Positions 4,875-44,735 of a DNA stretch of 45,065 bases are shown here, in pieces (the first letter of the stretch is position 1; the number at the start of each line of letters is the position of its first letter). The notes under the pieces are model-generated. The model searched no databases and was not told the DNA's origin. It was given only the letters and a program-made list of their open reading frames with translations. This DNA comes from Saccoglossus kowalevskii (Eukaryota; Hemichordata; Enteropneusta; Harrimaniidae). The DNA lies in NCBI RefSeq assembly GCF_000003605.2, contig NW_003116459.1, positions 8,334 through 53,398 on the forward strand. The letters are read 5' to 3'. Made by a program: the position numbers and the translations under genes.

Positions 4875-5406
4875 TGTAGTCATATTGCACTGGTGTAATC
4901 CCATTGCAGTGCTGTAATCCTATTGCACTGGTGTTATCCTGTTATACTGCTGTAATCCCATTGCACTGATGTTATCCCATTGCACTGGTGTTATCCTGTT
5001 ATACTGCTGTAATCCCATTGCACTGCTGTAGTCCTATTGCACTGGTGTAATCCTGTTGTACTGATGTAATCCCATTGCGGTGCTGTAATCCTATTGCACT
5101 GGTGTTATCCTGTTATACTGCTGTAATCCCATTGCACTGCTGTAGTCATATTGCACTGGTGTAATCCCATTGCAGTGCTGTAATCCTATTGCACTGGTGT
5201 TATCCTGTTATACTGCTGTAATCCCATTGCACTGATGTTATCCCATTGCACTGGTGTTATCCTGTTATACTGCTGTAATCCCATTGCACTGCTGTAGTCC
5301 TATTGCACTGGTGTAATCCTGTTGTACTGATGTAATCCCATTGCGGTGCTGTAATCCTATTGCACTGGTGTTATCCTGTTATACTGCTGTAATCCCATTG
5401 CACTGC
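4875..5406. repeat. Higher-order repeat in the minisatellite, 266 bp
   Basis: Rare variants recur exactly 266 bp apart. The variant tgtagtcatattgcac occurs at 4875 and 5141, and cattgcggtgctg has its ttgcgg at 5075 and 5341. 266 bp equals 14 units of 19 bp, so a 14-unit block was duplicated in tandem. Confidence 0.85.
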
Positions 5407-5780
5407 TGTTATCCCATTGCACTGGTGAAATCCAGTTATACTGCTGTAATTTCGTTGTACTGATGTAGTCCCGTTATACTGCTGTAAGCCCGTTGTACTG
5501 ATGTAATGCTTTTGTACTGATGTATTCCCGTTGTACTCTTGTAATCCAATTGTACTGATGTTATCCCATTATACTGCTGCTATCCCGTTATACTGATGTA
5601 ATCTCGTTATACTGCTGTAATCCCGTTATACTGCTGTAATCCTGTTGTACTGTTGTAATCCCATTGTACTGATGTAATCCCGTTGTACTGCTGTAATCCC
5701 ATTGCACTGGTGTAATCCTGTTGTACTGATGTAATCCTGTTGTACTGTTTGCAATCCCATTGCACTGCTGTAATCCCATT

Positions 5781-6990
5781 GCACTGGTTTAATCCCGTTA
5801 TACTACTGTAATCCCATTGCACTGCTGTAATCCCATTGCACTGCTGTAATCCCGTTATACTGCTGTAATCCCATTGCACTGCTGTAGTCCTATTGCACTG
5901 GTGTAATCCTGTTGTACTGGTGTAATCCCATTGCAGTGCTGTAACCCATTGCACTGGTGTTATCCTGTTATACTGCTGTAATCCCATTGCACTGCTGTTA
6001 TCCCATTGCACTGGTGAAATCCCGTTATACTGCTGTAATCCCGTTGTACTGCTGCAATCCTGTTGTACTGGTGTGATCCCGCTGTGCTGTTGTAATCCCA
6101 TTGTACTGCTGTAATCCCATTGCACTGGTGTAATCCTGTTGTACTGGTGTGATCCCATTGCAGTGCTGTAATCCTGTTGTACTGGTGTGATCCCATTGCA
6201 GTGCTGTATTCCCATTGCACTGCTGTAATTCCATTGCACTGGTGAAATCCCGTTATACTGCTGTAATCCCATTGTACTGATGTAATCCTGTTGTACTGAT
6301 CTAATCCCGTTGTACTGTTGTAATCCCATTGTACTGATGTAATCCCGTTATATTGCTGTAATCCCGTTATACTGCTGTAATCCCGTTGTACTGATGTATT
6401 CCCGTTGTACTGTTGTAATCCCATTGTACTGATGTAATCCCGTTGAACTGCTGTAATCCCATTGCACTGGTGTAATCCTGTTGTACTGGTGTAATCCTGT
6501 TGTACTGTTGTAATCCCATTGCACTGCTGTAATCCCATTGCACTGCTGTAATCCCGTTATACTGTTGTAATCCCATTGCACTGCTGTAATCCCGTTATAC
6601 TGCTGTAATCCCATTGCACTGCTGTAGTGCTATTGCACTGGTGTAATCCTGTTGTACTGGTGTAATCCCATTGCAGTGCTGTAATCCCATTGCACTGGTG
6701 TTATCCTGCTATACTGCTGTAATCCCATTGCACTGCTGTTATCCCATTGCACTGGTGAAATCCCGTTATACTGCTGTAATCCCGTTGTACTGCTGTAATC
6801 CTGTTGTATTGGTGTGATCCCGTTGTGCTGTTGTAATCCCATTGCACTGGTGTAATCCTGTTGTACTGGTGTGATCCCATTGCAGTGCTGTAATCCCATT
6901 GCACTGGTGTAATCCCATTGAACTGCTGTAATCCCATTGCGCTGGTGTTATCCTGTTATACTGCTGTAATCCCATTGTACTGATGTAATC
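5781..6990. repeat. Larger higher-order duplication in the minisatellite, about 740 bp
   Basis: The segment from about 5850 recurs about 740 bp downstream. The variant gctgtagt at 5881 matches 6621, and ctggtgaaatcccgttatac at 6011 matches 6752. The offset changes from 740 to 741 because the first copy lost one base (gtaacccat near 5941). 741 is 39 units of 19 bp. The outer boundaries are approximate. Confidence 0.75.
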
Positions 6991-7616
6991 CTGTTGTACT
7001 GATCTAATCCCGTTGTACTGTTGTAATCCCATTGTACTGATGTAATCCCGTTATACTGCTGTAGTCCCGTTATACTGCTGTAATTCCGTTGTACTGATGT
7101 AATCCCGTTGAACTGCTGTACTCCCATTGCACTGGTGTAATCATGTTGTACTGCTGTAATCCAATTGCACTACTGTAAACCGGTTGTACTGATTCAATCC
7201 CGTTGTAATGGTGTAATCCAAATGCGCTGCTGTAATCCAATTTCACTGCGTTAATCCCGCTGGTTTTTGTGCGAGGTCGAGATAGAATTCTGTTGTTATT
7301 ATTGCCAACAATATAATATTTTATTTGTTTTAACTTGACACTCCCTCTAAATCTCGCTCTATCTCTCTCTGAACTTGTTTCGTATTTCAAGTTAATTTTT
7401 ATATACTAAATAAATAACATGATTTTGCAACATAACCTAATATAGGACTTTGTTGCTAAAGGTCGTTCTTTCAGAAGTATCAGAGATTTTATGATCTGAT
7501 GCAAACTTTATATTTACAATAATGATGTATTATTAAAATAGATCAAATCTCAGGTTATAGTATAAAATTGCATATTAATTAGTGATTGCTCAAATAATTG
7601 ATTATTTGATAATTCC

Positions 7617-12991: not shown

Positions 12992-13166
12992 ATGACTGGC
13001 AACTCGACCCAAAAATCAGCCGAGAAGCTGTTTCTCGCCGCTGCCGAGAAAGGGGACAAGAAAATGCTAGTGGACGCGCTTGAACGTTTTCCGGAATTGG
13101 ACATTAATTGCGAAGATTGTGAAGGACGTTCGGCGCTGGTGATTTCAATCATGGCCGGCAATACTG
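12992..13166 (+). CDS. TRPC gene B exon 1 (N-terminal ankyrin region)
   Basis: Encodes residues 1-58 plus one base. A-E-K-L-F-L-A-A-A-E-K-G-D and D-I-N-C-E-D-C-E-G-R-S-A-L match the first TRPC ankyrin helices. The donor is G/gtaggt at 13167. I chose the ATG at 12992 because it has A at -3 and sits about ten residues before family similarity begins. The frame stays open upstream to an ATG at 12797, and those 65 codons do not resemble TRPC, so a longer N-terminus is possible but unsupported. The split codon G/AT gives Asp59 on joining to exon 2. Confidence 0.85.
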
Positions 13167-22100: not shown

Positions 22101-25100
22101 GTATTTGTATTAAAGTCAACTCAACTCTATATTGTACGCTTTATTGGTACCAACATGACAACTTCGTAAACACGCAGATAAAGGTGCTATCCTAAAATAA
22201 GGATTTTATAATTTCACTGGAAAAATAAATAAATACAATAGCGGTTATGTAGTACGATTTGTCGAAGCTGTCTACAATCAGCAATTGTAACATTTGATGC
22301 GATTAACACGGTTTGTAACACCGAAATATTCATTAAGCGCAAACCTTATCCGTTTAATCAGCTTCATTTTAGGACTTATCTGAGATACTGCTATATAATA
22401 TTTGATTTTTAAAACCAGACAAATAATGTTTGTTTACAATTGAATTCATCTTTAGAGAATAGTGATAATTGTTTTCCCTCTGTCTCAGTCTCAATGATAG
22501 GCACAATGCATTGTAATGTGAGGGAAATTGCTCTAGTATCTGTTATCTCGTACGTTTTGGCACTCTTTGGCAGACGCGATGTCAAGTCACATCTGCTATT
22601 CATTAATGATATACTAGTATTTGTAAAATATTTGTTTAGGACATAGCATGTGACATTATACTTTGAAGGTCAATGCATGTACGTGTTCTCCGCAGTAATT
22701 GGTTAATACTACAACTGCGTCACTAGTTTAAATACACCATGCATCGCTGGTCAAAATAAACATTCCCATTAACTAATGTCTCCAATGGATTACGCAATGG
22801 TTTGGAAATGTACACTTAATACTTAATAAATTTTCTATATGAAAATTACATTACCTTAAGGCAATTTCAACTAAATTCTAATTTAGCATCAAGTGAGCGC
22901 GTCACTACGTATAATTTATTGACATAGTAAAAGTACAATAAAATATATCGAAAACATTAGAAACCCGCTGCACTACAAATAACATTGGAAATATTATTAA
23001 CATTAGATGAATTTCCCAGCAAGCAAAATTCCAATATTTTAATTTTCTACACTCGTGTGTTGAAGTAAAGCCAACTAACATGTATTTGTTTAACGTAGAA
23101 TGACTTTCTATATTTTTCTCGATTAGTGTTATTGTAACAAAGTCCTGTAGGACATCAAATTACTGTAATTAGTTGACAGAGAACGGGGAATAAGAGTGTA
23201 CATTAATATTTCTACACGCATATCTGAATATCTGAGGACAACCTCCAGTAAATATTGTTCAATTCCAATCACCCGCGATTAATTTTATCATTAAACGCGA
23301 TAATACATACATTCCCAACTGGTGTATGTAAACAGCGTCCCACACACCGGAACTAATTTAGTAGCGAAGTCATTCACTCGAAATAATATGAAAGACACGA
23401 GAGGACGATCAAACTGGAAACATCACAACCTACTTGTAAAAAGCATGTCTTGAATATGAACGACGTTGATCTCCTATCTAGAATATAGACATTGATCTAT
23501 CTAGAATGTAAACGACTTTGATCTCCTATCTAGAATGTAGTCGTCACTGACATATCTTGAATATAAACGACGTCGAACTCCTATCTAGATTATAGACGAC
23601 ACTGACCTATGTAGAATGTAGACGACGCTAACCTATATAAAATATAAACGACGTTGATCTCCTATCTAGAATATAGACCACACTGACCTATGTAGAATGT
23701 AGACGACGCTAACCTATCTATAATATAGACGACTTTGATCTCCTATCTAGAATATAGACCACATTGACCTATCTAGAATATACACGACTCTGATCTCCTA
23801 TCCAGATTATAGACGACACTGACCTATCTAAAATATAAACGACGTTGATCTCCTATCTAGAATGTAGACGACGCTAACCTATTTAGAAAATAGACGACTT
23901 TGATCTCCTATCTAGAATATAGACCACATTGACCTATCTAGAATAAAAACGACTCTGATCTCCTATATAGAATGTAGACGACACTTGCATATCTAGAATT
24001 TAGACGACACTGACCTATCTAGAATGTAGACGATGCTAACCTATCTAGGATATATACGACGTTGATTTCGTATCTAGAATGTAGACGACGCTAACCTATT
24101 TAGAATATAGACGATTTTGATCTCCTATTTAGAATATAGACGACATTGACCTATCTAGAATGTAGACGACGCTAACCTATCTAGGATATATACGACGTTG
24201 ATTTCCTATCTAGAATGTAGACGGCGCTACCCTATTTAGAATATAGACGACTTTGATCTCCTATCTAGAATATAGACGACACTGACCTATCTAGAATGTA
24301 GACGACGCTAACCTATCTATGATATTTACGACGTTGATTTCTTATCTAAAATGTAGACGACGCTAACCTATTTAGAATATAGACGACTTTGATCTCCTAT
24401 TTAGAATATAGACGACACTGACCTATATCTAGAATGTAGACGATACTTACCAATCTAGAATATAAATTTTGATCTCCTATCTAGAATGTAGACGACGCTA
24501 ACCTATTTAGAATATAGACGACTTTGATCTCTTATCTAGAATATAGAAAACACTGACCTATCTAGAATATAATTGATACTGTCCTATCTAGAATATAAAC
24601 GACTTTGATCGCCAATCTAGAATATAGACGCCACGGACTTATCTAAAATATAAACGACAATGAGCTACTTTCTGCGCGAAGGCAGTGCGGGGATCGCACC
24701 GACCGACGCACAGCCTAAGTGCATACTTTGCTGTATTCTCAAGATATCCTTGATGTAATTCATCCTGATTTTAGTTCTTATCTAGTAAGAGATTATACCT
24801 CGAAATAAAACTAAAATTGTTTTGTGCTGGGTGTTATTTCCGTTGTGTTCTATAGCGCCTCTGCGTTCAATGTAAATATGGGTAAGTGTTCGAATGTGAC
24901 GTTAATTACCTGGAACGCGTCATTGTTGATGACGTAATCTATTGCACTTAATGTATATGCAGCCGTGTTAAATTACCCATAATTCAGAAGTTTGTGGAAG
25001 CAACAGAAAGAAAGACTCTCTAATGATAAATGGCATGACCTTCTATCCGACAATTACGTGTCTGTCTTTCTTTAACCGAGCATTCAGATTAACAAATTTC

Positions 25101-31100: not shown

Positions 31101-34100
31101 CATTTTTTCAAGACAAATCACAACAAGCTTCAATCTAAAAATAATACACGTCACCAAGAGCGGTATCGATAATGAACTTTATGTGCATTTATGCGTACTA
31201 GTTTAGATTCATAATTATTAAACCCATATTATGTTTGCAGTTTAATATCCGACTGCCTTAACAATTTCATTTTACATTTTACACACTTTCATAAACAGCT
31301 GGAATTGTTTACCTTTCGTTATAAAGCTCATGTAATTTAAAGGACAAATAGATCTAGACTATTTTAAATGACATATTCACGCATAACACAGGGAGACTTT
31401 ATGTACTTGCTCATTTAGAGGTTCCACAGTATCTCACCTAGGTTTTTTGAAATGTTTTCCGTGAGCGAAATTACAGTGGTATTATATAAAGACAAACTTG
31501 AAAAATGAGTACTAAAATTATTCTTTTTAAATCTGTTTATTCTAGATTCCAAACTTGATAACTCCTCAGCACCAAGCTCGAAAGTTGCGTCAGGTGGAAG
31601 TAATATTGTTTGGACTGACGTTCGCGTCTGTTTTTCATATTTGCGCGAAAAATAATACCATGAGCATAATGAATTCATTGTTTCAAAGAGTATATTCTAA
31701 AACAGGTACATAAATGTACATACAATAAACATTATTATTGTACAGGCTGTACGTGTGTGTGGTTGATAGAATTTTAGAATACGCCCTCAAACCTAATTAT
31801 TCATCAGTGAAAAGTCAAGATCTGTCTTTCCACAGGGATGAAACATCATTGAACTTCTTTCCCAGTCGTCATTTCTCGTATGTGAATGCAATTCTAAGTG
31901 AAATGGTTTGCTAGTTCGTCCACAGTTTCCCTGTATACACTGACCTCCAGGACACTCATATGGAACGCCTATTTATCAAATAAAATGGAATGTGTAGCCA
32001 ACTTCATCAATAAATATAGTACGTTGTGTGATTAGTCTATTCCATGATTTCTCTTCAACGTGCGTGGCCCGTACCTCGCACAATAAATATAATTGGGGTA
32101 ATTGAATATCTATTACAATTTATCGGCTTCTCAAGTCATATTGCGCATGTAATAATTATATGCAACAGGGTGTAATTGTGTTTTTTCAGATGTTGTAGCT
32201 GTCCTACTAGAGCGTGGGATCGACGTTGCCGATTCACTGTTGCAAGCAGTTGACATACAGATCATTGGTTCAGTGTCAATAATATTGGACCATTTGAAAG
32301 GCAAGCACTTACTGAGGGTAAGAATATACAACATAGCGCAATATTGTGATTTAAAATTGTCCATACATGTGTTAAAAGTTAGATACAATGTAACATTGAC
32401 ATACCAATAACTGTGAGTGGACATATTCATCTAATGATGTCGAAATGTTGTTGTCAGACAACAAGTATTTAACAGGGGAAGAATTTAAAGGTACATTGTA
32501 TATTGAAGGTCATTTTATGATTTAAATTTTTGAAATACAATTGCAAGTAAAGCTAATATTCCCAAATCCACAGAGAGAGTAGAAGGTTTGCGATGGTGTC
32601 GACCGATTAATTTCTTCCCTGTCTAACCTAATCCAAAGAAAGCTATGTGTGAGAAATCTCTATGTCATATTGTGAATAATGCATTCACTTTAATTAAAGG
32701 CATCTAACTGAATTTGCTCTAAGGGTCACATGGCCCTGAGCTGTAGTCTACTCGTGTGAAGTGATTCGGTGATCAGTCCTATGACATCGCACCTCAGTAA
32801 TGAATCAGATACTTACGTACGTGAAGTTAGACGAGTAGCAGATGAATGACGTCATACTAAAGGTCGAAATACAAACTTAGATTAATACAATTTATATGAC
32901 GCCATAGTACTTTAAATCCTGAATTTAATTTGCTAGAAAAAACGTACTCGTAAATAAATCATATTTAGACTGAGGTTGAGCACCAGAAAGGGCAAAATAT
33001 CAGCCACAATGACGTCATATCATGGGAAATGATCTGACATGAAAGATAATATGCTCAAAGGATAATAGCATAAGATGTATAGCTTTGTCATTGATAATCA
33101 CTATATTTCTTCCATTTAATTTTTGTATTGTCACCTACCCAGAATGCTTTGTAAATGTGAACAATACACTGGTCATGACCCGTCCTTTTGTCGCTCTTCT
33201 TTGGCGTAGCTGGTGTACAAGGTAAATTTTGGGATTCTCCCTATACTATACGACGAGCGACATTTCAGCGATATATTGCCTACACCCATTTACGTCATTC
33301 TCAATTAGATGCCAAAAAAGCGTTTTGTTGCTAGAGGGCGCGACTGATTGGTCTATTTTATATATTATTCATTACGTCATTGTTTGTAGACACTTAACTC
33401 ACGATGATTTGGCTCGAACAATTAATGAATAACTAAAATATTATGAATTTTAATCATTAGTGTGGGTTGGAGATCACGTAACAAAATCTGGCCAATGTCC
33501 ATGGAAGGAGATTGGAGGAAGCGTAAATGTTTTTTTTTTCTTTTATAGGAATGTCTCAACTGTCACTCGTTGAATGGAGACTTGCATCCAGATATTACGC
33601 CGATCATCTTAGCAGCCCACCATAACAATTATGATATCATTAAACTTCTCCTCGATAACGGGGCAAATATCGATGATCCAGAATTCTACACATTTAAGAC
33701 CGAACAGTTCACGCTGCAACACTCTCTTGGTTTGATAAATGTATACAAAGCATTGGCCAGTCAGGCCTACATAGCGCTAACCAGTGCAGATCCTATCGAC
33801 ACTGCGTTTGAATTGGGTCAAAAGTTACACCAGCTCAGTAAACGCGACTACGAGTTCAGAAACCAATACCAAGAATTAGCTGATCAATGCGAACAGTTTG
33901 CCTCGGATCTACTCGGGAAAGTTCGGGATTCCGATGAGCAGGCGATTGTTTTGAATCACGATCCAGAAGAGTGGTTGTTAGATGGGTCAGAAAATAAATG
34001 CGACGAACCTTATAAGGTGAAAAGAGCTATTAAGTGTGAACAAAAGAAGGTACGAGATTGATTAACAAGAAATGATTTTCACAAGTTTCAACATTATATT

Positions 34101-37100
34101 CCACATTTTCTGTCACATATACAAGGTTTGATTCCAAACGACAAAGCATAGGTCTAGCACCAGCAGATTTTAAGGTTTATTGTTTTTTCTTTGTTCAAAG
34201 CGGAAACATGTGGAAGGGATTATTATATAACAGCAGAAATTGCTATATTGGTGTTCATTTCCCACGTTTTACCAGGTTGCTTTATGAGTGATCCCTCCCC
34301 ATAAACCTGAACAACTAGATTCTTTTCTTATTTTACAGTTTGTTGCGCATCCTCACTGCCAGCAGCATCTAATAGAGGGATGGTACAGAGGACTTCCTAA
34401 TTGGCGGCAACAGGGCAAAGTGAAAACATTGTTCGTCATAATTGTCATCTTTTTTTGCTTACCAGTATTATGTTTATCGTACGTGATATCGCCAGAAAAC
34501 AGGGCATCCAAATTACTACGTATACCGTATCTGCGATTCGTGTGTCATACGTCTTCCTCGGTCTGGTTTCTGGTGTTGCTAGGGTTACAGGCTGTGGATT
34601 GGGAGGGAATAGACGATAACGTACACGGGACACCGGATCATGATAAATGGGCTTTCGTTGTGAAACAACAGCAGAGAGTTTCGACGCCTTCATTCACCGA
34701 AATTCTCATAATCTTCTGGATTTTAGGTAAGTTCTTACTTTTTATCAGCCTGTCATCCGCCTAGACCATGGTCCAAATTAAAAACCCAAAAGGTACAGCG
34801 TGTTCCACTAGTATTGCGATATAGACTCCCCGTCACAAGTTTTCGACAGAGTGTATTTCTTTCGTTTTTTTGGAGTACAAAAGAGAAAGAAAAATATTTT
34901 GACAAGATAATTCAGAAATGTATATTAAGAATAATTCATAACGATGCACCCATAACTAATTTCCATAAATACCGATTACAACTCATGCATGAACAATAAC
35001 TTTAATAAATATGATTTTACTTAATATAAATACTGTATTTTTCTGCATAAAAACGAAAGAATTTCATATTGTCGAAAACGGAAAGTCTTTATCGCAGTGT
35101 TCACTGGAATAAAACCATTCCCGGCTTACGTCGAAAACAATTCCTGGTAAGTCCACTGAGTAACCATTGTCTTGAAAAACTTGAATAAGTAATGTAATGT
35201 CAAATGGTTTGAATGTTGCTGGTACCATTCATCAGACATATATTGTCAGTGGTAAGAAATAACAGTATGTCGGTTATTGAACTTAGATGCAAACACTTAA
35301 ATCATAATTTAGGTACAAGTAACTGTCAATCATTCCGCGTGACGATTGTTTTGAAATAAGGATATTTGATCAAATATTAACACTGACGCTATTTCAAATG
35401 GATACAACAACGACGATATAAAGTTGTTGTCTTAGCAACCAGAAAACCCGGAACTCGTCCAAAAATTATTAGTTTCTATCCAAACCCCTGATACAAAGCA
35501 TGGTATTGTCTACGCTGAGACTATATACGGCAGTGTAGCAATGACGTAGCGCAATGTCCAAATATGGGCACATGATATAATATTCGATGTATATTTCAGG
35601 GTTGACATGGCAAGAATGTCGTACGTTATGGAAAAAAGGTGCTAAGTCGTTCATGGAGAACTTTCAGTGGAAAGTGTTTGACTTCATTACCTTATCTTTA
35701 TACTGGGGATGGATAGCCCTGCGTGTCACAGTCACAATTCAGGTAGAGCTATTTATATACATTGAACGACGCAATGTGGTTAAACGCATTGTTTAATATG
35801 GTTGTTTGTTACAGTATGTCTATAAATACATTGAATTATGATTTGAAATGAACAACTAACGTTGCCTGTATGTATCAAAGCAGTGTATTAATATTCGTCT
35901 AGCATATTTTAGAACATGAATGGACATTTCTTAAGCTGTGGTCTCACTGTGCGAAAAATTTTTGTAAGTTGAATTTTGTTTTAACAACCTGAAAGAAACT
36001 GAATCCCATTTTCAATTTGATTTGTACATAATGTAACAAGTTTTAACATTTTAGAATAGGAATATTTATGTTTAGCCATCTCAACTTTCGTTTTAACAAC
36101 CTGAAAGAAACTGAATTCAATTTTCAATTTGATTTGTACATAATGTAACAAGTTTTAACATTTTAGAATAGGAATATTTATGTTTAGCCAAATATTAAAT
36201 AATTCATTATAGTGTAATTTAGGGTTATTGTTAATAGTGTTATAAAATAATGAAGGACGGCCACAGCCAGTTTTACTCATATAGTTATTGTTATATGGCC
36301 ATTAATTAGTCCTTGTGTACATATTTTTGAAGGTGAACATTTTTGCCATAATATTATCAGGGGGAAATTCTTCTCCTCTAGGGTTCTCCACACGTGCCAG
36401 GGGGGAATCTCGTCTCGTCTCTCTATCTCGTCCCCTTGAGGTACGGGATCGGGAAAGTCACTTAAGCTTTACAGTCAAATAGACACACACAACGAAATAC
36501 GTTTCAACTCACGTCTTAGTCGGTTATTCGATCACTCTATAAGACACAGCGCTCTGGGGAAAAGTCCCCAAGACTATCGCAAGGCTGACCCAAGACTCAC
36601 CCAAGACTCTCCAGGACTGCGTCTGTTCTGGTGTACTCGCCAAGACCAGCTAAAAACAACTTTATTCGCTTTCAAAACATTAACCAATTACAAAGCAGTA
36701 AAAAGACTCTAGGGCGTAACCTTCAATCATAAAGCCAATCACACTAAGCACTGAACACATCATATCTTTTGATTAATCGTTCACTACATAAATAACTACG
36801 AATACTAAACTGTCAGAAATAGTAGTCCGAATATCGACGGTTATCTCGTACTTAGTTCCAAATCACTGAGTCGAGTTCAGTTCAGAACCTCGCATAGGCT
36901 TAAACGATGACAGACATAACACAACCAAACCATTCACTCGTAATCAACTAATTAAGTCGATTAACAGATACGTGTAAACAATTTCATCATAATATTACAT
37001 TTTATGTATCCCCAGCCAAATCAAAAACTTTCTTATGTAAATATCATTTAATGGGAGAACAAGATTATGAAACCAATTATTGTCAGTTTATTTATGAAAC

Positions 37101-40100
37101 GGGAGAGCTAGAAACTACAAGCGATCACAAATTGTATGGACAAAAATATATACATATTACAGTTTTAAGAAAAAATAGCGATTTCCTTAAAATTTACACG
37201 CATGTAACCTCAAGGCTGTTTTGGGTGTTGGAGGCAAAAGTTCAAAATCACAGTATGTAAGTATGTGTATGTATTTATGTATGTCGACAGTATAAATAAT
37301 AGAAGGGAAAAATAGTCGAACTTAAATGTCAAGGCCAAAGTAATAATATACACGTGTATAAGGCCTAAACAGTGGATGTTGATATAACTATTAATGAAAT
37401 CTAGTGTAGGTTGATGTCTCCTCAGCGTGTTGTCTGGTTGTAGGAACAATTTCACAAGTTAGCCGGCGCCATTTTCTGTTTATGAAAGCTCAGTGTGGGA
37501 ATATGAATGAACTATTATGTTAATATTGTAATTAATTTATTCATTGCTTTCTCTAGACTACAAAACGGGAACTTCAAATTCCTTTGCCGACCAATATGCA
37601 TACATAAAATTGTACTGTTTTTCTTCTAATTAAAATTGTTTTTGTAACCGCATTTTGTGTAGACGTGCAGAAATTTTTACCTGAGAAATTATTCTATGTA
37701 TTAACATTCTACAAAAAACTGAAATTTCCGTATATTTATAATTATGTCGGTACCCACTTTTTATTTTTAAAAGGAATATACTAGTAACCAGCATGTTTTG
37801 TTTTACTTATTCGCCATCGTGTCCAAAAAATGTTTTCTCAATAATTTGGCCCGTGGTTCCATTTTTTTGCATATAAACTTGTATAACAATAGGTAATTTA
37901 TACACGAAGTATATACAACTTTCTAAACGTTTCATGAAAATATATTAGTCGAACATAACAACCGTGTCAGATTTTCTGAATAGATGGATATCGCGTTTTT
38001 TTTATTAACTGTAGTAAATGTAAATTGTTTATGTTGCACATGCTGTACGAATTATTAGAGTATTCTATAGTATACATATTTCGATGTTGAAGTGTGTAGC
38101 TACCGTCCGATTCACCCTCTCATTCTATAATAATATATAAATATTACCCAATGCACTGATCAGGATTATGACTCTTATTTTTATACAGGAAATGAATCGT
38201 GGAGCCGGCGGCTTATCGAGCATTGATAATAATCTGGATGGGTTTTACCACAAAAATTTAAACTTCTCATTTTTTGAACAGTACAGCGAAGGGTACTTTC
38301 AAGTACCGATGTCGGATTACGATTCGTCAAGCTCACAGACAGAAGAAATCGACTCCGTCATTTCATTGGACAGTTACAACGACTCATTTACGGACATGGA
38401 TGATGAAGACGAATTTGAAGGCAGCGCCACCAACGATTTGATCGAACTACGAATACAAATGGAACACATGAACCACCAGCTTGGAAAAGTACTAACCGAG
38501 CAAAAGAAGTTAGAATCAAACTTGACAGGAATCCTAACCGAAATGACAGAAAAAATGGAAAATATCAACGAGATGATGGAATCGTATAGAGTGATCTCTT
38601 CACAAAGATCGACGGGTTACCCGTCCACCCAGTCCAGCCAGACAACTCGTTTCCGAGGAATGAGCTCTGGTATGTATGGCTCACAATCAATGAACAACCT
38701 TGAGCCGTCAGCCAGAAAACGATGGGATGCTTTCGATCCTGTTCTTATATCAGAAGGTCTGTTTGCAATGGCAAAGGTCCTCACTTTCTTACGAGTAATC
38801 CGTATAACCGTCGTCAGCATGCATGTTGGCCCTATGCAAATATCCCTAGGGAGGATGATGATGGATATAGTAAAGTTTCTAATGATATTTTCGTTGGTAT
38901 GGTTCGCTTTCTCTCTCGGTCTTAATCAGCTTTATTGGTACTATTCGTTCGAGATGAAACTAGACTGCAAAGTTCGCAACGAGACCCAATGTTCTCAACC
39001 ATTTGGCACGTAAGTATTAGTGACATTGTTATATCTAGTCTTTAAAGGTAACTACCGAAAACATTGAATTATAAAGATCTCTTTATTAACAACCAGCGGT
39101 GATCTATACACTACTAAACGCACCGTTTTTCTGAGAAGCTACAACTATCAAATCTGCCACAACTTGACTATCACAAAATTCTAAACGTAGGTGGCGCTGT
39201 TCACATACCTGCTGACAGTGAATGTTAAACATCTCTAGACGACTTGATTGTTCCTTTAATATATAAATATATTTCTATTCCCGTTGAAGAAAGAAATCAC
39301 CAAATATAAAATCAGCGATAATAAAATTTATCTTGTATTTTACGTGTAATTACCAGTCCGTGAAAATAAAAATGTACCCCAAACAGGTAAACATGTTCTC
39401 CCACCTGGTAAAGGAATACTTATAAAGCCAAAACATCAAGACATGTTTTACCTGTCACATATATTTAAATAAACATCATCTATATAAATTTCAGTAATAT
39501 TATTTAAACTCTTTTCTTATTTGTTGGCATAAATATGGGAGTAATGCATTTTGAAATAAATAGGGCATATGTGGGAAAAATATTCATGCAAAATTTCAGC
39601 CAAAACAGAAATCTCATCCAAGACTTGATATTTCAGAAATTATATAGTCTCGATTTCCTATTCCTGATATAAGTATGCCCATATACGTCTGTGCATTGTG
39701 TGATGAGACACTAAAAATAAGTTTCATCTTCAACATCATGATTAAGCCAGTATAGTAGAACTGTAGTAAAACTATATTGTCTATGATTTAACGACATACT
39801 GAATGGGAAACATAAAAAAATGTTTTCATATCAGTGTGTGACATACATATACTTTAATAAAATATATTTTTATTTCCATATTATATAATTTTTAAGTAGA
39901 AGTCAAAACTGTATTCTGTATATTTTTTTTTTGTATTTTTGTCGACGATCGCATGAGTGTCTACATAAATTTGTAATACTTTTTATAACTCTTTGTTATC
40001 ATTCATAGAAGGTCGTTTCTAGACACATAAAACCAATCTACATCGTTGGTGCTACTGTATCAGACTCGGCTTCTTTTTTTGGATTTCTTAGATTTGTTTA

Positions 40101-43100
40101 AAGCGTTGGAGTATTCAGTTTGGAAAACCATTTGTGATCATTCTCCTGCCAGATAGATTGAATTTGTACATGTTTTTGCTTCGAGGATTCTTGTTTGCTT
40201 GGATATCCGTGACATACATTCTTTGAGCTCATTCGATCAGATGAAACGCGGACATTTGGGCACAAGAATAATATCATCGGTGTTTACCATAATGTGTTCT
40301 AAATATCTGAACTTATTTAACAGGTATTGTGCCAATGGAAATCAGTGATGGTTTGGCATCAAGTTCTTAACTGAGATACTTTTGTTTGAATGTAATTAAT
40401 ATAGAAGAACAATTTTCTATAATATGATTCAGAGGCGGCAAATGAACAATACATTTATTGACTCGGTAACAAGACTTTTTATGCAATTGACGCAGTTTCA
40501 CATATTACAGTAATAACCAATATATGCACTAAATAACACTCTGGGTTACACATTTATCCTGAGTAGAACTAATGTAAATTTCATTCAAACAATCCAGAAA
40601 AACCCTCAATACAATATGATCTAGCGAGAGATGGAAAAAATATTTAGTGACGTTTTCTATTTGCTATGTATACTGTATTTGTATGTTCAACATGAAAATG
40701 AAATAACCAGAAAATGTGTCAAAACACTAGCATAAGTATAGCCTACATGTCAGCAAGTTCACAACAGTCAACCAAAAATTTGTTTTCATGCAAGATTGAC
40801 CACAATCTGTTAAAGTAAAAGAAATTATATGTATGAATTTATAGATACACAGCATAAAAATCAAACTTTTCTATGAAATCTTTGTTAAAACTTGCACAAG
40901 TCTTAAGAAAATGCGCGTGATATGTAGGAAACAGTGACATGATAGTTCAACAATGTTCAAAATTGTAAAAATTGTAACATTAGACCTTTTAATGCATCAT
41001 GGGTAAAATCAAAATGGCAGTCTGGTGTCAAACTGAACATGTTTTGTCGAAATCCGTGTTTCTATTTTCAGAATACCAGATGCATTAAATACACTTTTCT
41101 GGGCGTTGTTCGGAGTATCTGAATTGGTAAGTCTAGACATAAAAGGTGCGGATCACTGGTTCACTGAAAGTGTTGGCAGGATACTGTTCGCTGCGTATCA
41201 CGTCATCGGTATGGTTGTACTTCTCAATGTACTCATCGCTATGATGAGTAATACATATACGAAAGTGGAGGTAGGTCATGTTCAAACATTTGCACGTTTC
41301 CATGCATAACCGCCCTCAAGCGGTGATGCACTCCGATATAATTATCACGTGAAGAAGATGTCGTTTACAAATAATAACATTGTTTGGTTGTTCATGCCTC
41401 CGTAATATGGAATGTAGTGCTTTTTACAAACTATTTAATTGTTGGACAGTATTTAATATTAAAAATAGTAGAAACTTTGGAATGATTTGTTTGCTACCAA
41501 TTGACAGCAACGTTAACAATTCGTCGTTTGAGGGCGCCATCACTCGTGACTTTTTGTATTTCACGTATTATAATTGCTGTGCTTTGGATTGCGTACAAAC
41601 ACCTTCCATTTCTTATTTTTATGCTAATTAATAATATATTGTAATGTTGAATTATTAATCAATTAATATTAGTGATTTTAGTGACGTTCAATTTATTAAA
41701 TATTACCTTTGCTCTCTAACAGATTCAGATTCTGAATGTCACAGCGAACTAACGTGTTACGTAATATTGTGCCGAGCCGACATCAATATCGGTTCGAAAT
41801 TGCAATTAACGATAGATATAGTAAATTTCTGCTTGAGTCTGTGCAATCAGCGCAACACCAGTCAATCATTTAATCAATGAATCATAGATAAATATACATC
41901 ACAAAACAAATTTGAAGTTTCAAAGTGGAAATACCACAATCACGTGTTGAACGTAAAACTTTAAAATATGACGTACAAAGCACTGTGAATGTTGTTGGAG
42001 GATGTCGGCTCATATATTTTACGTCTTTTTTATTGTCTATGTGGGTCGATAATTTTAATAAAATGTATAATAAGTAAGCCAGCGTGGCTGTGAAATCTGA
42101 TAATCGACATGCTGCTATGAAAGTGTTCGGAATAGGAGTAATGCAATTGTTTGTACAATAAAGGCCCCCTAGATGAAGTCTAACTGTGACTAAATGGAGC
42201 AATTTATTTTGATTGTCGGCGTCATGTCTACGTGCAGTGCTTTTTGAAACTTAAAAGTGCATAAACAATACGATTCATTTCCGCAACGGGAAACCAATGC
42301 CGCAGTTCATTGCACTGAAAATAGACACAATAGTGTATTGGTCAAACTGCGCACGTTTATCTGGTCGGCACCTTAGCAACTTCGTGCTATATTTTTGAAC
42401 CACATTTTCCTAACTGGTTTATATATGAACTTAGTAACTGATCGGGGATAATTTTGTTTTTCCATTTTTCTTTTATCGTCTCTAACATTCGTAGGAAGAC
42501 GCCGATATCCAATGGAAGTATGCTAGATCACGTCTTTGGGTCAGTTTCTTTGGCGAAGGCCAAACAGTGCCCCCGCCTTTCAACGTGTTGCCATCGCTGA
42601 AATGTATAATTGATCTCTTCAAGCGAATACGACTAAGAATGGCCGGGAAGAAAATAATTGACTTGAAAACTGTGAGTAGTAAATATTATGTCGCGTGCTT
42701 TTGACTAATTTGCATACGCCAATGTCCCATGGTGCACTGCGTGATACGAATGGCAGGTGGTCGTTTTTACATAAACTTAATATGTTCATATATAAAGATT
42801 GTTTACATGACATGCTTGTATTGATTATATCTCTAAATACTTTTTCCTCTTTTTTCAAATCGTTCTGTGCGCCTTTGTTATCCCAACTGTCAACCTCAGC
42901 GAATATATTTCTGTTCTAAAATCGTTTAATTCCCGTAAATATGTTTACAATTTGACGTCTTTGAATAAAATAAAAATAAGAGCAGTATCGCATTACCTGG
43001 TTGGTTAGAAATCAGTATTCTGTACAGATACAATTATTGTAATGTTAATAAAAAAACATGTAGAATTTTGAATCTAAGATTCATTATTATTTATTATTTA

Positions 43101-44735
43101 AAAGTCTGCTACTATAATGACAACTGCAATTCATATTAATATCAAAACTGTTTATTCTAGCGTAAACAATCAATGTTGGATATTAAGAGCAAGGAATATC
43201 AGGTACGTCCTACGCATGCGTTGTACAAACTATGTGTTACAAGCCACTCATAGGTCAGAGAAAGCAGAAACAAGGACAGCGACCCTTATTTGCGTTGATG
43301 AGTCTGAAAGAACGATATCCTTAGGATATTTTTAGAATATGAATCTGTTACTATTTATTTAGTTACATATTCAGCTGTAATTAACATTGCTTTGTCAGAG
43401 AAACGGTGTTGAGTGATACGAAATTGATGTTAATTGTACGGTTGTTTCGATGTGATGTTTTCTTAAATTACCCGACATTATGTTACATTTGAGTCTACGT
43501 TAATGATAAGCTATGGTTATCCAGCCTACAGTAGTGGATGCTGAATCATGACGTAATTTCACTTCATATGAAAACACATGTCAGTGATCATAAGAATGAC
43601 AGCATGGTTAAATTAAATAAGCAAATCGAAGTCACAGTGGCACATGCAGGTGATTGCTTCACAAACATATAATACACTGTTTCTGTAAATCATGCCCTCT
43701 ATCATCGACGCGATGATGTGAAGTAAATAAAACTGACACAGTGTCAATAATTTGTTTGTCTGTGGTCGTCTGTCAATAAAACAGACCTGTGCGGTGGTCG
43801 TCGCCCAGCGCTTGTTCGAATTTCATGTAAATAAACAATGTATTTCACACGCGTTGTATACATCGCTGTGAGTCTCCTATCGACGACTGCCGCCCTTTAA
43901 ATATTTTATTTATTCTGGAAAAGAACGACTACATTACCAAATGACTTATAGGAAAGTTAAAATAAAAAATTAATTAAATAATATCGATACCTCTCGATTT
44001 ATTCCTTGGTTAATTATAAATAAAGCCTTACAAAAGAGCGACACTTTCTTACAAACATGTAACTGAGAAACACGGTGGAAGTATCACTCTCCACAAAGCT
44101 TTACTTATCATTATCTTGTGATCTACGTATAATTTATCAGCCCGTTCGTTATATGTTCAGGTGCAATCACCTACACATACGTGGGTCAGGTTTGAAAACC
44201 ACTTCACGCTGACGTCTCTGGACCGTGTTGGCGCTAGAGGGCCGACTCACAGAACAGATTTATTGTCTCGTTTTCTTTCATTCAGGAGGTGGTTCAGCGC
44301 CTTGTTCGTAGGTACATGTTCGACAGACGTCGGGTAGGCGACGAGGACGAGGCTTTCGACCCGGTGCTCATGCAGGTCAAACAGGACATAACAGGTTTTA
44401 AATATGACATGTTTGAAACTTTAAGCAATATGGACGACAAAATGCAAATAATGCAAACTAGAATGAACGACCTTGAAACCATAGTGACGTCTGTCAGAGA
44501 CCAGTCCACGCCTGGTGCTGGACGTGGGTCCTCACCACCACCGACACCACGAACTCCATCCCCGATGCCACCTGACGAGTCGACAGAAGAAACAATGAGT
44601 ACAGTAGACGTGACTGAAGGACCGTGGGAAGAAATGCCTAGTGCGCTACTACCGCTGTACGAGTGGGGTCATATAAGTTATATCGATGAAGTGAGCTCCT
44701 TAGGCAGTCGTGGAAGCCGTACTTCATTTCTGTAA
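12992..44735 (+). CDS. TRPC gene B, complete ten-exon cation channel gene (span)
   Basis: Join of 12992-13166, 32190-32317, 33549-34049, 34339-34726, 35600-35742, 38189-39009, 41072-41270, 42495-42671, 43161-43202 and 44286-44735. The phases agree at every junction and all introns are GT-AG. The total is 3021 coding nt plus stop, giving 1007 residues. The product is a non-selective, probably Ca2+-permeable plasma-membrane channel subunit, in a family typically gated downstream of Gq/phospholipase C. Order: ankyrin region (about 10-145), linker helices (about 155-270), pre-S1 (297-318), S1 (334-352), S2 (387-406), S3 (425-445), an unusually long S3-S4 loop (446-622), S4 (630-655), S4-S5 linker (659-675), S5 (676-697), pore, S6 (about 756-780), TRP box (791-796) and CIRB/coiled coil (859-925). 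Typical TRPCs have about 750-980 residues; the extra length is mostly the S3-S4 insert. It lies downstream of its paralogue gene A on the same strand. Confidence 0.92.
13167..17100 (+). other. TRPC gene B intron 1, first part
   Basis: Start of a 19,023-nt intron (13167-32189). AT-rich, with no exon or RNA gene recognised here. Short open frames (for example 14535-14777) have no splice support or family resemblance. Short caagacaaa-type low-complexity sequence lies near 16980-17030. Confidence 0.5.
17101..18240 (+). other. Possible decayed mobile-element sequence in intron 1
   Basis: Holds a 68-codon open frame (17125-17331, S/T/N-rich, helical-looking) and a locally GC-rich stretch (about 17690-17840: tgccccgacccctag, cttcccctcccccgag) unlike the surrounding intron. 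It directly precedes the reverse-transcriptase remnant, so it may be the 5' part of that element or other nested debris. No protein family is recognised. Confidence 0.3.
18241..19610 (+). mobile_element. Decayed non-LTR retrotransposon (LINE), reverse-transcriptase 3' portion
   Basis: Recognisable in broken frames on the + strand. P-W-F-E-K-E-I-K-T-A-I-T-E-R-K then W-V-K-E (from 18243, one stop) matches the linker before a LINE reverse transcriptase. F-L-V-D-D-V-V-P-I-V-P-N-E (18527-18568) is a degenerate catalytic F/Y-A-D-D block with Val for Ala. M-T-I-N-E-E-K-S-K-V follows at 18605. S-F-E-Y-K-Y-L-G-I (18700 on) is the Y-L-G block. Near 19341-19480, A-R-Y-Y-T-Y-E-N-G and then frameshifted T-C-P-C-Y-K-N-E-D-V-T-L-K-H-L-F resemble the Cys/His C-terminal knuckle of such elements. 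Multiple stops and frameshifts mean it is inactive. The clade is not determined and the boundaries are approximate. Confidence 0.75.
19611..21010 (+). other. TRPC gene B intron 1, no feature seen
   Basis: AT-rich intron sequence with a short CA run near 19660. I found no exon, RNA gene or clear repeat. Confidence 0.45.
21011..21175. repeat. Tandem array, 21-bp unit, about 8 copies
   Basis: Unit ctgctaatatgtaacagttac, 21 bp, with increasing divergence toward the right (tgcctgctaatttatgacag, taacctaataaaatataac). It contains the palindromic-looking GTAACagtTAC core. Lies inside intron 1 of gene B. Confidence 0.9.
21176..23450 (+). other. TRPC gene B intron 1, no feature seen
   Basis: AT-rich intron sequence with no convincing coding exon, tRNA-like structure or long repeat. 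A short tttgta run lies near 22090-22110. The overlapping open frames at 21713-22028 show no family similarity and no splice context. Confidence 0.45.
23451..24661. repeat. 1.2-kb tandem array, alternating 26- and 29-bp units
   Basis: About 44 copies of a unit built on ctatctagaatatagacgac. It ends either in a short form (actgac or gctaac, 26 bp) or a longer form (tttgatctc, 29 bp). The two forms alternate in a loose pattern of two to three units. Nearly every unit has the palindrome TCTAGA or TTTAGA. Lies in intron 1 of gene B. It is unrelated to the intergenic arrays. Confidence 0.92.
24662..26040 (+). other. TRPC gene B intron 1, no feature seen
   Basis: AT-rich intron sequence with a brief GC-richer stretch immediately after the array (about 24675-24720). 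No tRNA boxes, exon or longer repeat could be supported. Confidence 0.45.
26041..26203. repeat. Nested inverted repeats (two arms each side)
   Basis: Left arms tatggaactgaaattat (26041-26057) and tatggaactgaaatcat (26067-26083) face right arms gattatttcagttcca (26136-26151) and gatttcagttcca (26191-26203). The shared core is GGAACTGAAAT / ATTTCAGTTCC. The doubled arms could fold as a cruciform, or be the termini of a small foldback or MITE-like element. Confidence 0.75.
26204..27137 (+). other. TRPC gene B intron 1, no feature seen
   Basis: AT-rich sequence with short open frames (26285-26542, 26849-27067) that show no recognisable protein features. No splice-supported exon seen. Confidence 0.4.
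27138..27381. repeat. Exact tandem duplication, 2 x 122 bp
   Basis: Copy 1 is 27138-27259 and copy 2 is 27260-27381. I could find no difference between them when read base by base. Each starts gtaaacgtaatattgcc and ends gagcagtattga. The lack of divergence means either a very recent duplication or an assembly artefact. Confidence 0.93.
27430..27690 (-). mobile_element. Possible tRNA-derived SINE remnant
   Basis: On the minus strand, ggtagcgtagtgg (complement of 27665-27677) fits a pol III A box (TRGCNNAGTGG). The sequence gttttcaaatt (complement of 27623-27633) is a degenerate B box about 44 nt downstream, close to tRNA-like spacing. A locally GC-richer body follows toward 27440. The open frame on this strand (27443-27664) has no known motif and is better explained as SINE body. 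The B box is weak, so the call is tentative. Confidence 0.45.
27691..28328 (+). other. TRPC gene B intron 1, no feature seen
   Basis: AT-rich sequence with an unsupported 87-codon open frame (27790-28053). It is somewhat hydrophobic but shows no motif and has no splice context. Confidence 0.4.
28329..29276. repeat. Block of about 840 bp flanked by diverged direct repeats
   Basis: attcatcttattaa...agaactttcgctattggttacttgagt (28329-28383) recurs as attcatcttattaaagaacttcccctattggctacttgaat (29225-29275). The enclosed block (about 28440-29110) has a different texture from the flanks, with gagggacacccacag and gaacaccactgaaagcag. It could be a decayed inserted element, or a segmental duplication with later insertion. 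No coding capacity is seen. Confidence 0.5.
29277..32189 (+). other. TRPC gene B intron 1, last part
   Basis: AT-rich intron ending in the acceptor ttttttcag (AG at 32188-32189). Short open frames in both strands have no support. No RNA gene or long repeat seen. Confidence 0.5.
32190..32317 (+). CDS. TRPC gene B exon 2 (ankyrin region)
   Basis: Encodes residues 59-101 (Asp59 spans the junction). D-V-V-A-V-L-L-E-R-G-I-D-V-A-D-S-L-L-Q-A-V-D continues the ankyrin helices begun in exon 1, and is typical of TRPC (V-x-L-L-L ... D-A-L-L-x-A-I). The donor agg/gtaaga starts at 32318, phase 0. It is only 128 nt and lies 19 kb from exon 1, but phase and family similarity make the join secure. Confidence 0.88.
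32318..33548 (+). other. TRPC gene B intron 2
   Basis: A 1231-nt phase-0 intron, gtaaga to ttttatag. No internal exon, repeat or RNA gene recognised. Confidence 0.75.
33549..34049 (+). CDS. TRPC gene B exon 3 (last ankyrin repeat and linker helices)
   Basis: Encodes residues 102-268. It contains the TRPC signature P-D-I-T-P-I-I-L-A-A-H-H-N-N-Y-D-I-I-K-L-L-L, then Q-H-S-L-G-L-I-N-V-Y-K-A-L-A, then D-P-I-D-T-A-F-E-L-G, then E-F-R-N-Q-Y-Q-E-L-A-D-Q-C-E-Q-F-A, and A-I-V-L-N-H. Family members normally have a His/Cys cluster between the ankyrin repeat and the R-H-S-L-type segment, which binds zinc in solved structures. Here residues 142-160 contain no cysteine. The exon instead opens with E-C-L-N-C-H (102-107). 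The donor is aag/gtacga. Confidence 0.93.
34339..34726 (+). CDS. TRPC gene B exon 4 (pre-S1, S1, start of S2)
   Basis: Encodes residues 269-397 plus one base. F-V-A-H-P-H-C-Q-Q-H-L-I-E-G-W-Y is the conserved TRPC stretch before the membrane domain. A hydrophobic pre-S1 segment (about 297-318) ends in Y-V-I-S-P. S1 covers about 334-352. A loop follows (W-E-G-I-D-D-N to P-S-F), then S2 begins (T-E-I-L-I-I-F-W-I-L). The acceptor is ttttacag and the donor is g/gtaagt. It ends in phase 1 and matches exon 5. Confidence 0.93.
34727..35599 (+). other. TRPC gene B intron 4
   Basis: An 873-nt intron, gtaagt to atatttcag, with a mobile-element fragment inside it (34814-35110). No other feature seen. 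Confidence 0.75.
34814..35110 (+). mobile_element. LINE-like 3' fragment in intron 4
   Basis: A 61-codon open frame (34814-34999) includes Y-F-D-K-I-I-Q-K-C-I-L-R-I-I-H-N-D. This resembles the I-x-x-I-Q-K-R-x-x-R-I-I segment found after the reverse transcriptase of many non-LTR elements. Nearby DNA (34923-34980 and about 35083-35104) is repeated upstream of gene B near 12.5 kb, as expected of a dispersed element. It is short and decayed. Confidence 0.5.
35600..35742 (+). CDS. TRPC gene B exon 5 (S2 end and S3)
   Basis: Encodes residues 398-445. G-L-T-W-Q-E-C-R-T-L-W-K-K-G completes S2 and the S2-S3 turn. The segment F-Q-W-K-V-F-D-F-I-T-L-S-L-Y-W-G-W-I-A-L-R-V is the conserved S3. The exon ends in phase 0 at T-I-Q, just after S3 reaches the outer face. 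The acceptor is atatttcag and the donor is cag/gtagag. Confidence 0.93.
35978..36190. repeat. Direct duplication of about 101 bp, offset 112 bp
   Basis: gttttaacaacctgaaagaaactgaat ... gaatatttatgtttagcca occupies 35978-36078 and again 36090-36190. The copies differ near gaatcccatt / gaattcaatt. About eleven bases separate them. Confidence 0.92.
36358..36660 (-). mobile_element. Possible solo LTR or other mobile-element fragment
   Basis: Clearly more GC-rich than the intron around it, with internal short repeats (cccaagactcacccaagactctcc) and a gggggaatctcgtctcgtctctctatctcg tract. Read on the minus strand it has gaataaag followed by a GC-richer segment, as in the R region of some LTRs. No terminal repeats or target duplication could be defined, so this stays tentative. 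Confidence 0.25.
38189..39009 (+). CDS. TRPC gene B exon 6 (large S3-S4 loop insert, S4, S5)
   Basis: Encodes residues 446-718 plus two bases. Residues 446 to about 622 form an S3-S4 loop far longer than the family norm of roughly 20-50. It has D-Y-D-S-S-S-S-Q-T-E-E and T-D-M-D-D-E-D-E-F-E acidic runs, a predicted coiled coil (about 528-577), a Ser/Thr/Gly-rich stretch, no Cys, and sequons at N470 (NFS), N509 (NDS) and N556 (NLT). Family sequence resumes at R-K-R-W-D-A-F-D-P-V-L-I-S-E-G-L-F-A-M-A (S4). It continues with G-P-M-Q-I-S-L-G-R-M-M-M-D-I-V-K-F (S4-S5 linker) and S5. C705 and C713, around sequon N709, precede the pore. The acceptor is ttatacag and the donor is ac/gtaagt. Confidence 0.92.
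39010..41071 (+). other. TRPC gene B intron 6
   Basis: A 2062-nt phase-2 intron, gtaagt to tctattttcag. AT-rich, with no additional exon, repeat array or RNA gene recognised. Confidence 0.75.
41072..41270 (+). CDS. TRPC gene B exon 7 (pore helix, filter, S6)
   Basis: Encodes residues 719-785 (Thr719 spans the junction). I-P-D-A-L-N-T-L-F-W-A-L-F-G-V-S-E-L carries the pore helix with the TRPC LFW triplet and the F-G filter region. S6 is Y-H-V-I-G-M-V-V-L-L-N-V-L-I-A-M-M-S-N-T, very close to the family consensus, which supports a conducting pore. The donor after V-E is gag/gtaggt at 41271, phase 0. The open frame running on past the donor is intron read-through. Confidence 0.95.
41271..42494 (+). 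other. TRPC gene B intron 7
   Basis: A 1224-nt phase-0 intron, gtaggt to cattcgtag. No additional feature supported. Open frames at 41380-41631 and on the minus strand at 41882-42202 lack any recognisable motif. Confidence 0.75.
42495..42671 (+). CDS. TRPC gene B exon 8 (TRP box and proline motif)
   Basis: Encodes residues 786-844. E-D-A-D-I-Q-W-K-Y-A-R-S-R-L-W carries the TRP box; the usual E-W-K-F-A-R is Q-W-K-Y-A-R here. V-P-P-P-F-N-V-L-P-S at 810-819 is the conserved Pro-rich segment that follows the TRP helix. A basic stretch (F-K-R-I-R-L-R) ends the exon. The acceptor is cgtag and the donor is act/gtgagt. It acts at the inner membrane face, coupling S6 to the cytoplasmic domains. Confidence 0.94.
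42672..43160 (+). other. TRPC gene B intron 8
   Basis: A 489-nt phase-0 intron, gtgagt to ttattctag, with no other feature seen. Open frames across it are shadows or unsupported. Confidence 0.75.
43161..43202 (+). CDS. TRPC gene B exon 9 (42-nt microexon)
   Basis: Encodes residues 845-858, RKQSMLDIKSKEYQ, between tttattctag and gtacgt, phase 0 at both ends. It aligns over its whole length with gene A's microexon (KKQSIFAKKEQEYK): K-Q-S at positions 2-4 and E-Y near the end are shared. It joins directly to the E-V-V-Q-R-L-V helix of exon 10. Without it the frame would stay open, so it could be an alternative cassette. That is inference. Confidence 0.87.
43203..44285 (+). other. TRPC gene B intron 9
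   Basis: A 1083-nt phase-0 intron, gtacgt to ttcattcag. AT-rich, with no other feature seen. Confidence 0.75.
44286..44735 (+). CDS. TRPC gene B exon 10 (CIRB helix, coiled coil, C-terminal tail)
   Basis: Encodes residues 859-1007 and a TAA stop. E-V-V-Q-R-L-V-R-R-Y-M-F-D-R-R-R is the CIRB-like amphipathic helix. V-K-Q-D-I-T-G-F-K-Y-D-M-F-E-T-L then a heptad-like segment to about 925 is the C-terminal coiled coil. A Pro/Ser/Thr-rich linker follows (P-P-P-T-P-R-T-P-S-P-M-P-P; several S/T-P sites and PxxP motifs). W-G-H-I-S-Y-I-D-E (985-993) is shared with gene A. The last residues are T-S-F-L, which fit a class I PDZ ligand (S at -2, L at 0). The acceptor is ttcattcag with AG at 44284-44285. 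Confidence 0.94.
   Translation, partial: EVVQRLVRRYMFDRRRVGDEDEAFDPVLMQVKQDITGFKYDMFETLSNMDDKMQIMQTRMNDLETIVTSVRDQSTPGAGRGSSPPPTPRTPSPMPPDESTEETMSTVDVTEGPWEEMPSALLPLYEWGHISYIDEVSSLGSRGSRTSFL

Follow-up and report, generated by a model that had tools for sequence, protein, structure and literature searches.

A TRPC channel gene of Saccoglossus kowalevskii with an enlarged S3-S4 loop and a predicted coiled-coil helix

Gene content of the window

The window, i.e., the whole analysed stretch of 45,065 nucleotides, contains on its forward strand what reads as a complete TRPC gene, here called gene B. Its ten exons encode 1007 amino acids with one terminal stop codon and none internally, and all nine junctions show GT-AG borders with consistent phases (Table 1). 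The exon boundaries are predicted from sequence, i.e., they were picked among neighbouring GT/AG candidates by reading frame and TRPC similarity; within this model, exon 9 and the choice of start codon carry the greatest uncertainty. Exon 6, which is of main interest here, follows exon 5 in phase 0 via the acceptor TTTTTATACAG directly followed by GAAATG, and is left via the donor CAC followed by GTAAGT.

Several further elements accompany this gene. Intron 1 spans 19 kb and contains a satellite-like array (23448-24658) with reported periods of 55, 81 and 136 bases. Within intron 5, just ahead of the unusual exon 6, a stretch of about 112 bases is tandemly duplicated with 97% identity (35974-36190), which is probably a recent event. 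Just upstream of gene B and on the same strand, positions 578-1039 comprise the final exon of another TRPC-like gene, gene A. Since its part at 593-778 matches the C-terminal end of gene B with 53% identity across 62 residues, both genes look like tandem duplicates; the S3-S4 region of gene A falls beyond the window. A 19-base unit repeated about 263 times forms an array (2263-7258) that is open in reverse-strand frames, and its long repetitive ORFs look like artefacts rather than genes. Scanning the whole window with Rfam at gathering thresholds gave 0 matches.

Table 1. Coordinates of the gene B exons and of the parts of the S3-S4 insert within the window.
Feature	Position	Strand	Remarks
Exon 1	12992..13166	+	start codon (inferred choice), ankyrin region; Pfam ankyrin
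Exon 2	32190..32317	+	ankyrin region
Exon 3	33549..34049	+	ankyrin, TRP_2 domain
Exon 4	34339..34726	+	pre-S1, S1, bulk of S2
Exon 5	35600..35742	+	S2 end to S3; phase 0 end at residue 445
Exon 6	38189..39009	+	S3-S4 insert, S4, S4-S5 linker, S5, start of pore loop
Exon 7	41072..41270	+	pore helix with LFW motif, S6
Exon 8	42495..42671	+	TRP helix QWKYARSRLW, VPPPFN
Exon 9	43161..43202	+	14 codons
Exon 10	44286..44735	+	cytosolic C-terminus, coiled-coil segment (residues 904-931), stop codon
Whole insert	38189..38713	+	residues 446-620; net +143 to +169 vs 33/33 PDB TRPC sequences
N-terminal linker of insert	38189..38422	+	residues 446-523; acidic, Ser-rich; sequons N470, N509
Long helix of insert (predicted)	38423..38608	+	residues 524-585; heptads; sequon N556
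C-terminal linker of insert	38609..38713	+	residues 586-620; Ser/Thr-rich, pLDDT <50

TRPC identity of gene B

The top PDB match of gene B is TRPC4a, presumably the zebrafish sequence, with E = 5.6e-150, where the alignment falls into two parts (residues 8-444 and 621-905). TRPC5 (9v6j) aligns in a similar manner (7-444 and 620-937), and these two obtain the best PDB scores, i.e., 504.5 bits for TRPC4a and 502.1 for TRPC5, followed by TRP-gamma (497.4), TRPC3 (459.1), TRPC6 (423.7) and TRPC1 (398.8). By score, the predicted channel is thus nearest to TRPC4/5 and TRP-gamma. This order suggests a placement in the alpha-TRPC group, i.e., TRPC1/4/5 plus TRP-gamma (PMC13402157, available portion), though TRPC1 scores lowest.

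The hydrophobic segments S1 to S6 occur in TRPC order, and the ankyrin region, TRP_2, S1-S6, pore and TRP helix of vertebrate TRPC4/TRPC5 (e.g., PDB 7b05, 6aei) can be aligned with gene B on either side of the insert. Pfam reports TRP_2 (PF08344; E = 9.2e-15, 55.0 bits vs. cut-off 27), Ank_2 (43.8 vs. 27.3 bits) and Ion_trans (residues 636-788; 67.7 vs. 25 bits). We further find the motifs LFW at residue 727, QWKYARSRLW at 791 and VPPPFN at 810, where the TRP helix and the proline motif following it are TRPC traits. The LFW pore motif is given as a TRPC trait as well (PMC5967863, available portion). With NCBIfam TIGR00870 (trp), gene B reaches 495.1 bits (E = 2.9e-148), i.e., 3.7 bits below the curated cut-off of 498.75. 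The match is split into two stretches (best 8-445); we read the shortfall as a probable effect of the insert rather than as a sign against family membership. The TRPC assignment made in the first-pass annotation is therefore supported by PDB alignments, Pfam domains and the pore and TRP-helix motifs; the reading frame, splice phases and flanking family motifs reported there likewise hold, given in-phase exons, GT-AG borders and TRPC matches on both sides of the insert.

Size of the S3-S4 loop

S3 ends with residue 445, the final residue of exon 5, and the S4 entry starts at R621 of RKRWDAFDPVLI. In between, 175 residues follow in frame, all of them from exon 6. The first-pass annotation had given 177, counted up to residue 622.

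For comparison, we measured the loop as the number of residues from the last aligned S3 position to the first aligned S4-entry position. Here, 33 of 35 PDB sequences were kept, leaving out 6djs (TRPC3, matches only residues 9-241) and 5vkq (NompC). All 33 distinct sequences show a gap of 6-42 residues compared to 175-185 in gene B, which is in line with the roughly 20-50 residues given for TRPC loops in the first-pass annotation. The gap is 6-7 residues for TRPC4/TRPC5 (gene B: 175-176), 15 for TRP-gamma (175) and 35-42 for TRPC3/TRPC6 (178-185), which are more distant by score; the TRPC6 count takes in part of S3, since the alignment stops at residue 434. The net excess of gene B thus amounts to 143 residues relative to TRPC3/6, 160 relative to TRP-gamma and 169 relative to TRPC1/4/5. 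TRP-gamma (PDB 9vqq, which we take to be from Drosophila) is also the best single match for exon 6 and shares the R-x-R-W-D-A block at the S4 entry.

Judged by this set, the gene B loop lies outside the size range of solved TRPCs in 33/33 comparisons, though a short S3-S4 loop does not formally define a TRPC channel. The 33 sequences represent few genes (TRPC1, 3, 4, 5, 6 and TRP-gamma), some of them as fusion constructs; TRPC7 is not among them, and by name the set is without TRPCs of molluscs, annelids, echinoderms and cnidarians. Calling the loop unprecedented therefore holds for solved members only. An extended TM3-TM4 loop has been remarked for the TRPC family in general (PMC9242649, available portion).

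Coding character and splicing of the insert

We scored codon usage by log-odds trained on the remainder of gene B. In frame, the insert obtains 0.254, compared to -0.166 to 0.104 in the other five frames. Four leave-one-out blocks covering 700 of gene B's other 832 codons range from 0.155 to 0.203, while 297 windows of introns 2-9 have a mean of -0.121 and a maximum of 0.101; the intron values are somewhat lowered because stops were skipped and the background was set by these very introns. Synonymous choice alone hardly separates coding from intron sequence, since the value of the insert (0.068) is below the intron maximum of 0.103 (mean -0.076, 150 windows), with the four blocks at -0.007 to 0.011. 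All of 20000 composition shuffles of the insert contain in-frame stops, and the longest open stretch in any gene B intron on the same strand has 103 codons. The GC content of the insert is 0.43 (GC3 0.51), compared to 0.33-0.50 for whole exons and 0.30-0.37 for the nine introns. That is, the insert scores as coding.

Splice sites were scored with approximate matrices. The acceptor at 38189 reaches 8.2, i.e., rank 4 among the nine acceptors of gene B (range 0.7 to 11.4). Within exon 6, the in-phase acceptor 38282 scores 3.6, which is above 3/9 model acceptors; its use would drop residues 446-476. Two further in-phase acceptors, 38633 (-0.1) and 38642 (-2.8), score below all nine. Their use would shorten the loop to 27 and 24 residues, respectively, which is inside the 6-42 range of solved TRPCs. 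The best in-frame candidate for a hidden intron in exon 6 extends over 84 bases from 38669 to 38754, with a donor score of 3.6 and an acceptor score of 4.1. Its splicing would remove the conserved S4 entry along with only about the last 15 insert residues and thus fails to explain the insert away; this intron is probably not used.

Predicted helix and heptad array

AlphaFold2, applied to exon 6 alone as a single sequence and single chain, gives a model that is weak overall (mean pLDDT 58.3, pTM 0.26). It predicts one continuous helix for residues 524-585, with a mean pLDDT per block of ten residues of 85-94 across 526-575 (five blocks) and of 66 in 576-585. Values below 50 are observed at residues 446-510, 520-523 and 586-629.

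A heptad register spans residues 527-579, in good agreement with the heptad-like segment located before at about 528-577. Its a positions are L529, M536, L543, Q550, L557, M564, I571 and Y578, and its d positions L532, M539, V546, L553, I560, K567 and M574, i.e., 13/15 are hydrophobic and Q550 and K567 are polar core positions. The 3.5-residue hydrophobic moment of 527-578, a segment chosen after inspection, is matched by 0/20000 segment shuffles. When the whole protein is scanned in 955 overlapping segments of 53 residues, the one with the strongest periodicity starts at residue 527 (0.231), compared to 0.192 for the best segment that does not touch the helix. The COILS-type score is moderate, with 1.44 (p 0.88) for a 28-residue and 1.53 (p 0.80) for a 21-residue window, where the GCN4 control obtains 1.83 and 1.81. 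The score of the insert is reached by 1/300 shuffles of the whole insert and by 86/1000 shuffles of the segment only, and it therefore owes much to composition. In summary of both measures, the coiled coil proposed earlier is backed by the periodicity and the predicted helix and less so by the COILS-type score; as modelled, the segment is coiled-coil-like, i.e., it shows regular hydrophobic heptads in a continuous predicted helix.

Beyond the core, e positions are hydrophobic in 4/7 cases (a count reached by 129/20000 shuffles) and g positions in 0/8, one of the latter being the sequon residue N556. The heptads L543/V546 and L557/I560 are of the kind with Leu at a and a beta-branched residue at d, a pattern that favours four-stranded bundles in GCN4 variants. 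Following this rule, the e positions together with these two heptads lean towards a four-stranded bundle. The a/d/e-hydrophobic pattern may hint at a four-helix bundle that would match the channel's four subunits.

Topology, charge and sequons

The extracellular domain of solved TRPC3 is built from the S3 helix together with the linkers S1-S2 and S3-S4 (PMC5967863, available portion). Given that the S3-S4 linker is extracellular in this fold, the insert should lie outside the cell. Its charge is consistent with this side, i.e., 30 D/E vs. 11 K/R in the insert compared to 2 vs. 5 in the cytosolic S2-S3 stretch 401-423. As a mild point against an extracellular placement, the acidic and Ser-rich stretch 484-526 (43 residues; 14 D/E, 0 K/R) would suit a cytosolic segment too. 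The sequons N470, N509 and N556 as well as the lack of cysteine are found in the insert as first annotated. However, with 13 Asn and 38 Ser/Thr among the 175 residues about 2.8 sequons are expected by chance, such that the three provide no evidence for the extracellular side. The extracellular placement of the first-pass annotation thus follows from the TRPC3 fold, as far as covered by the available portion of PMC5967863, and is consistent with charge, while the sequons are uninformative and the acidic stretch fits the cytosol as well.

Relatives of the insert

No Pfam family passes its curated cut-off over the insert; DUF948 (E = 0.005, 17.4 bits vs. cut-off 37.2) and four other matches are weak. 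Likewise, the PDB search yields nothing with E < 0.05 over this region. Its seven sub-threshold matches, just as the weak Pfam ones, are coiled-coil-like, with CCDC39 (E = 0.068) as the best and a fibritin fusion (0.17) as the next. Concerning a copy from elsewhere in the window, we find no blastn match with E < 0.8 besides the insert itself and no tblastn match. We also considered that gene B's own cytosolic C-terminal coiled coil had been duplicated into the loop. Local alignment to it scores 42, which is reached by 18/500 shuffles, and the C-terminal exon of gene A scores 30 (382/500 shuffles); this origin was rejected as unconvincing. Pattern scans of viral contigs gave no match with the whole gene B protein and 23 with exon 7, of which 0 were confirmed; scanning prokaryote genome contigs with exon 6 gave 28, again with 0 confirmed. 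This absence of relatives says little because the searched libraries hold few invertebrate proteins. In the literature on TRPC/TRP loop inserts, extracellular coiled coils and TRPC surveys, no such insert is described by title or opening of the abstract among the matches listed.

Interpretation

The most likely reading of the insert is a genuine extracellular coiled-coil domain, specific to this lineage, which would tie the S1-S4 domains of all four subunits together or bind a partner. Subunit tethering, binding of a ligand or matrix protein and mechanical sensing, as suggested in the first-pass annotation, are putative functions. We tentatively favour, at somewhat short of an even chance, that the S3-S4 loop of gene B has grown into an extracellular helical domain whose four copies pair as a parallel bundle. 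Such a loop would consist of a flexible acidic, Ser-rich stalk (446-523), the heptad helix (524-585) with a length of about 90 Angstrom and a flexible Ser/Thr-rich return (586-620). Above the membrane, the four helices of a channel may associate in parallel. Such a bundle would connect the peripheral S1-S4 domains of all four subunits and thereby restrain assembly and gating, with an extracellular partner, calcium or force as possible modulators. Both linkers look long enough for the helices to reach the pore axis. Arithmetic with about 3.4 Angstrom per residue gives a contour length of >100 Angstrom for the 35-residue return linker, therefore reach is unlikely to limit a bundle. The specific architecture of an extracellular four-helix bundle with one helix per S3-S4 loop, which would form an external crown above the pore and link the sensor-like S1-S4 domains, is possible but rather doubtful. 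A working channel and translation of the loop are presumed in all of this.

The main rival to the four-helix bundle is a binding arm, i.e., the extracellular domain would be real, but its helix would pair with a matrix protein, a cell-surface protein or an accessory subunit instead of the other three copies and yield an anchored or ligand-gated channel, which we consider conceivable if on the unlikely side. The low-confidence, probably flexible linkers on both sides suit such a tethered arm, as does the acidic stretch free of basic residues. Moreover, a glycan on N556 at its g position would hinder a tight tetramer and thus counts against the bundle, and the polar core positions weaken tight self-assembly. 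On the other hand, four copies of one helix at such a high local concentration should first pair with one another, the e-position pattern suits a homo-bundle, and no partner protein is known for the arm. It is improbable that the helix is a mere spacer and the acidic stalk (484-526) the working part, concentrating or sensing extracellular calcium near the pore. Extracellular acidic sites do tune TRPC4/5 by calcium and lanthanides, and the charge bias of the stalk fits; yet cation binding is purely conjectural from sequence, and the regular, improbable pattern sits in the helix rather than in the stalk.

A tolerated expansion without specific function, i.e., an intron remnant or a loop under low constraint that has drifted into frame, seems unlikely to us. 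It would agree with the lack of above-threshold matches in Pfam, PDB, the rest of the window and viral or prokaryote contigs as well as with flanks that are rich in few residues and modelled at low confidence. Against it, codon use is coding-like, the GC content exceeds that of all nine introns, and a heptad array with the protein's strongest periodicity is unexpected for a drifting intron, a regularity that makes neutral expansion less likely. We also give little credence to an optional cassette, where an acceptor within exon 6 would often yield a short ordinary loop and the long form would be a minor or tissue-specific isoform. The in-phase acceptors 38282, 38633 and 38642 are present, and the latter two would leave loops of a size normal for solved TRPCs. 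However, these two score under all model acceptors, far from the value of 38189, while 38282 takes out only 31 residues such that the helix stays.

Comparison with known channels

A precedent for an enlarged extracellular S3-S4 region is given by TRPC3/TRPC6/TRPC7 (for TRPC3: PMC5967863, available portion). There, the S3 extension of TRPC3 together with the S3-S4 linker forms an extracellular domain proposed, rather than demonstrated, to sense external stimuli. In contrast to gene B, the TRPC3 enlargement lies in S3 itself, and the portion of PMC5967863 available describes no outside coiled coil. Among the compared solved TRPC structures, the surplus of about 150 residues with its long, predicted coiled-coil-like helix has no counterpart.

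In PKD2 and TRPML, the extracellular domain is located between S1 and S2 and shows a mixed fold, whereas that of gene B would be located between S3 and S4 and is a single long helix in the model. Both are TRP channels likewise known for a large extracellular domain (PMC7001106, available portion).

A natural TRPC with an external helical module of about 150 extra residues would provide a clean test of whether S3-S4 can relay outside signals to the pore. It would also offer a natural example of how a channel made of four subunits may gain a possible oligomerisation domain on its outer side. Gating of TRPC channels is mostly attributed to lipids and G proteins acting from inside; if true, the crown would make such an internally gated channel responsive to external ligands, calcium or force as well.

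The extracellular S1-S2 loop encoded by exon 4 (34597-34689) is longer, too, with 17 gap positions relative to TRPC4a and TRPC5. More than one outside loop is therefore enlarged in gene B.
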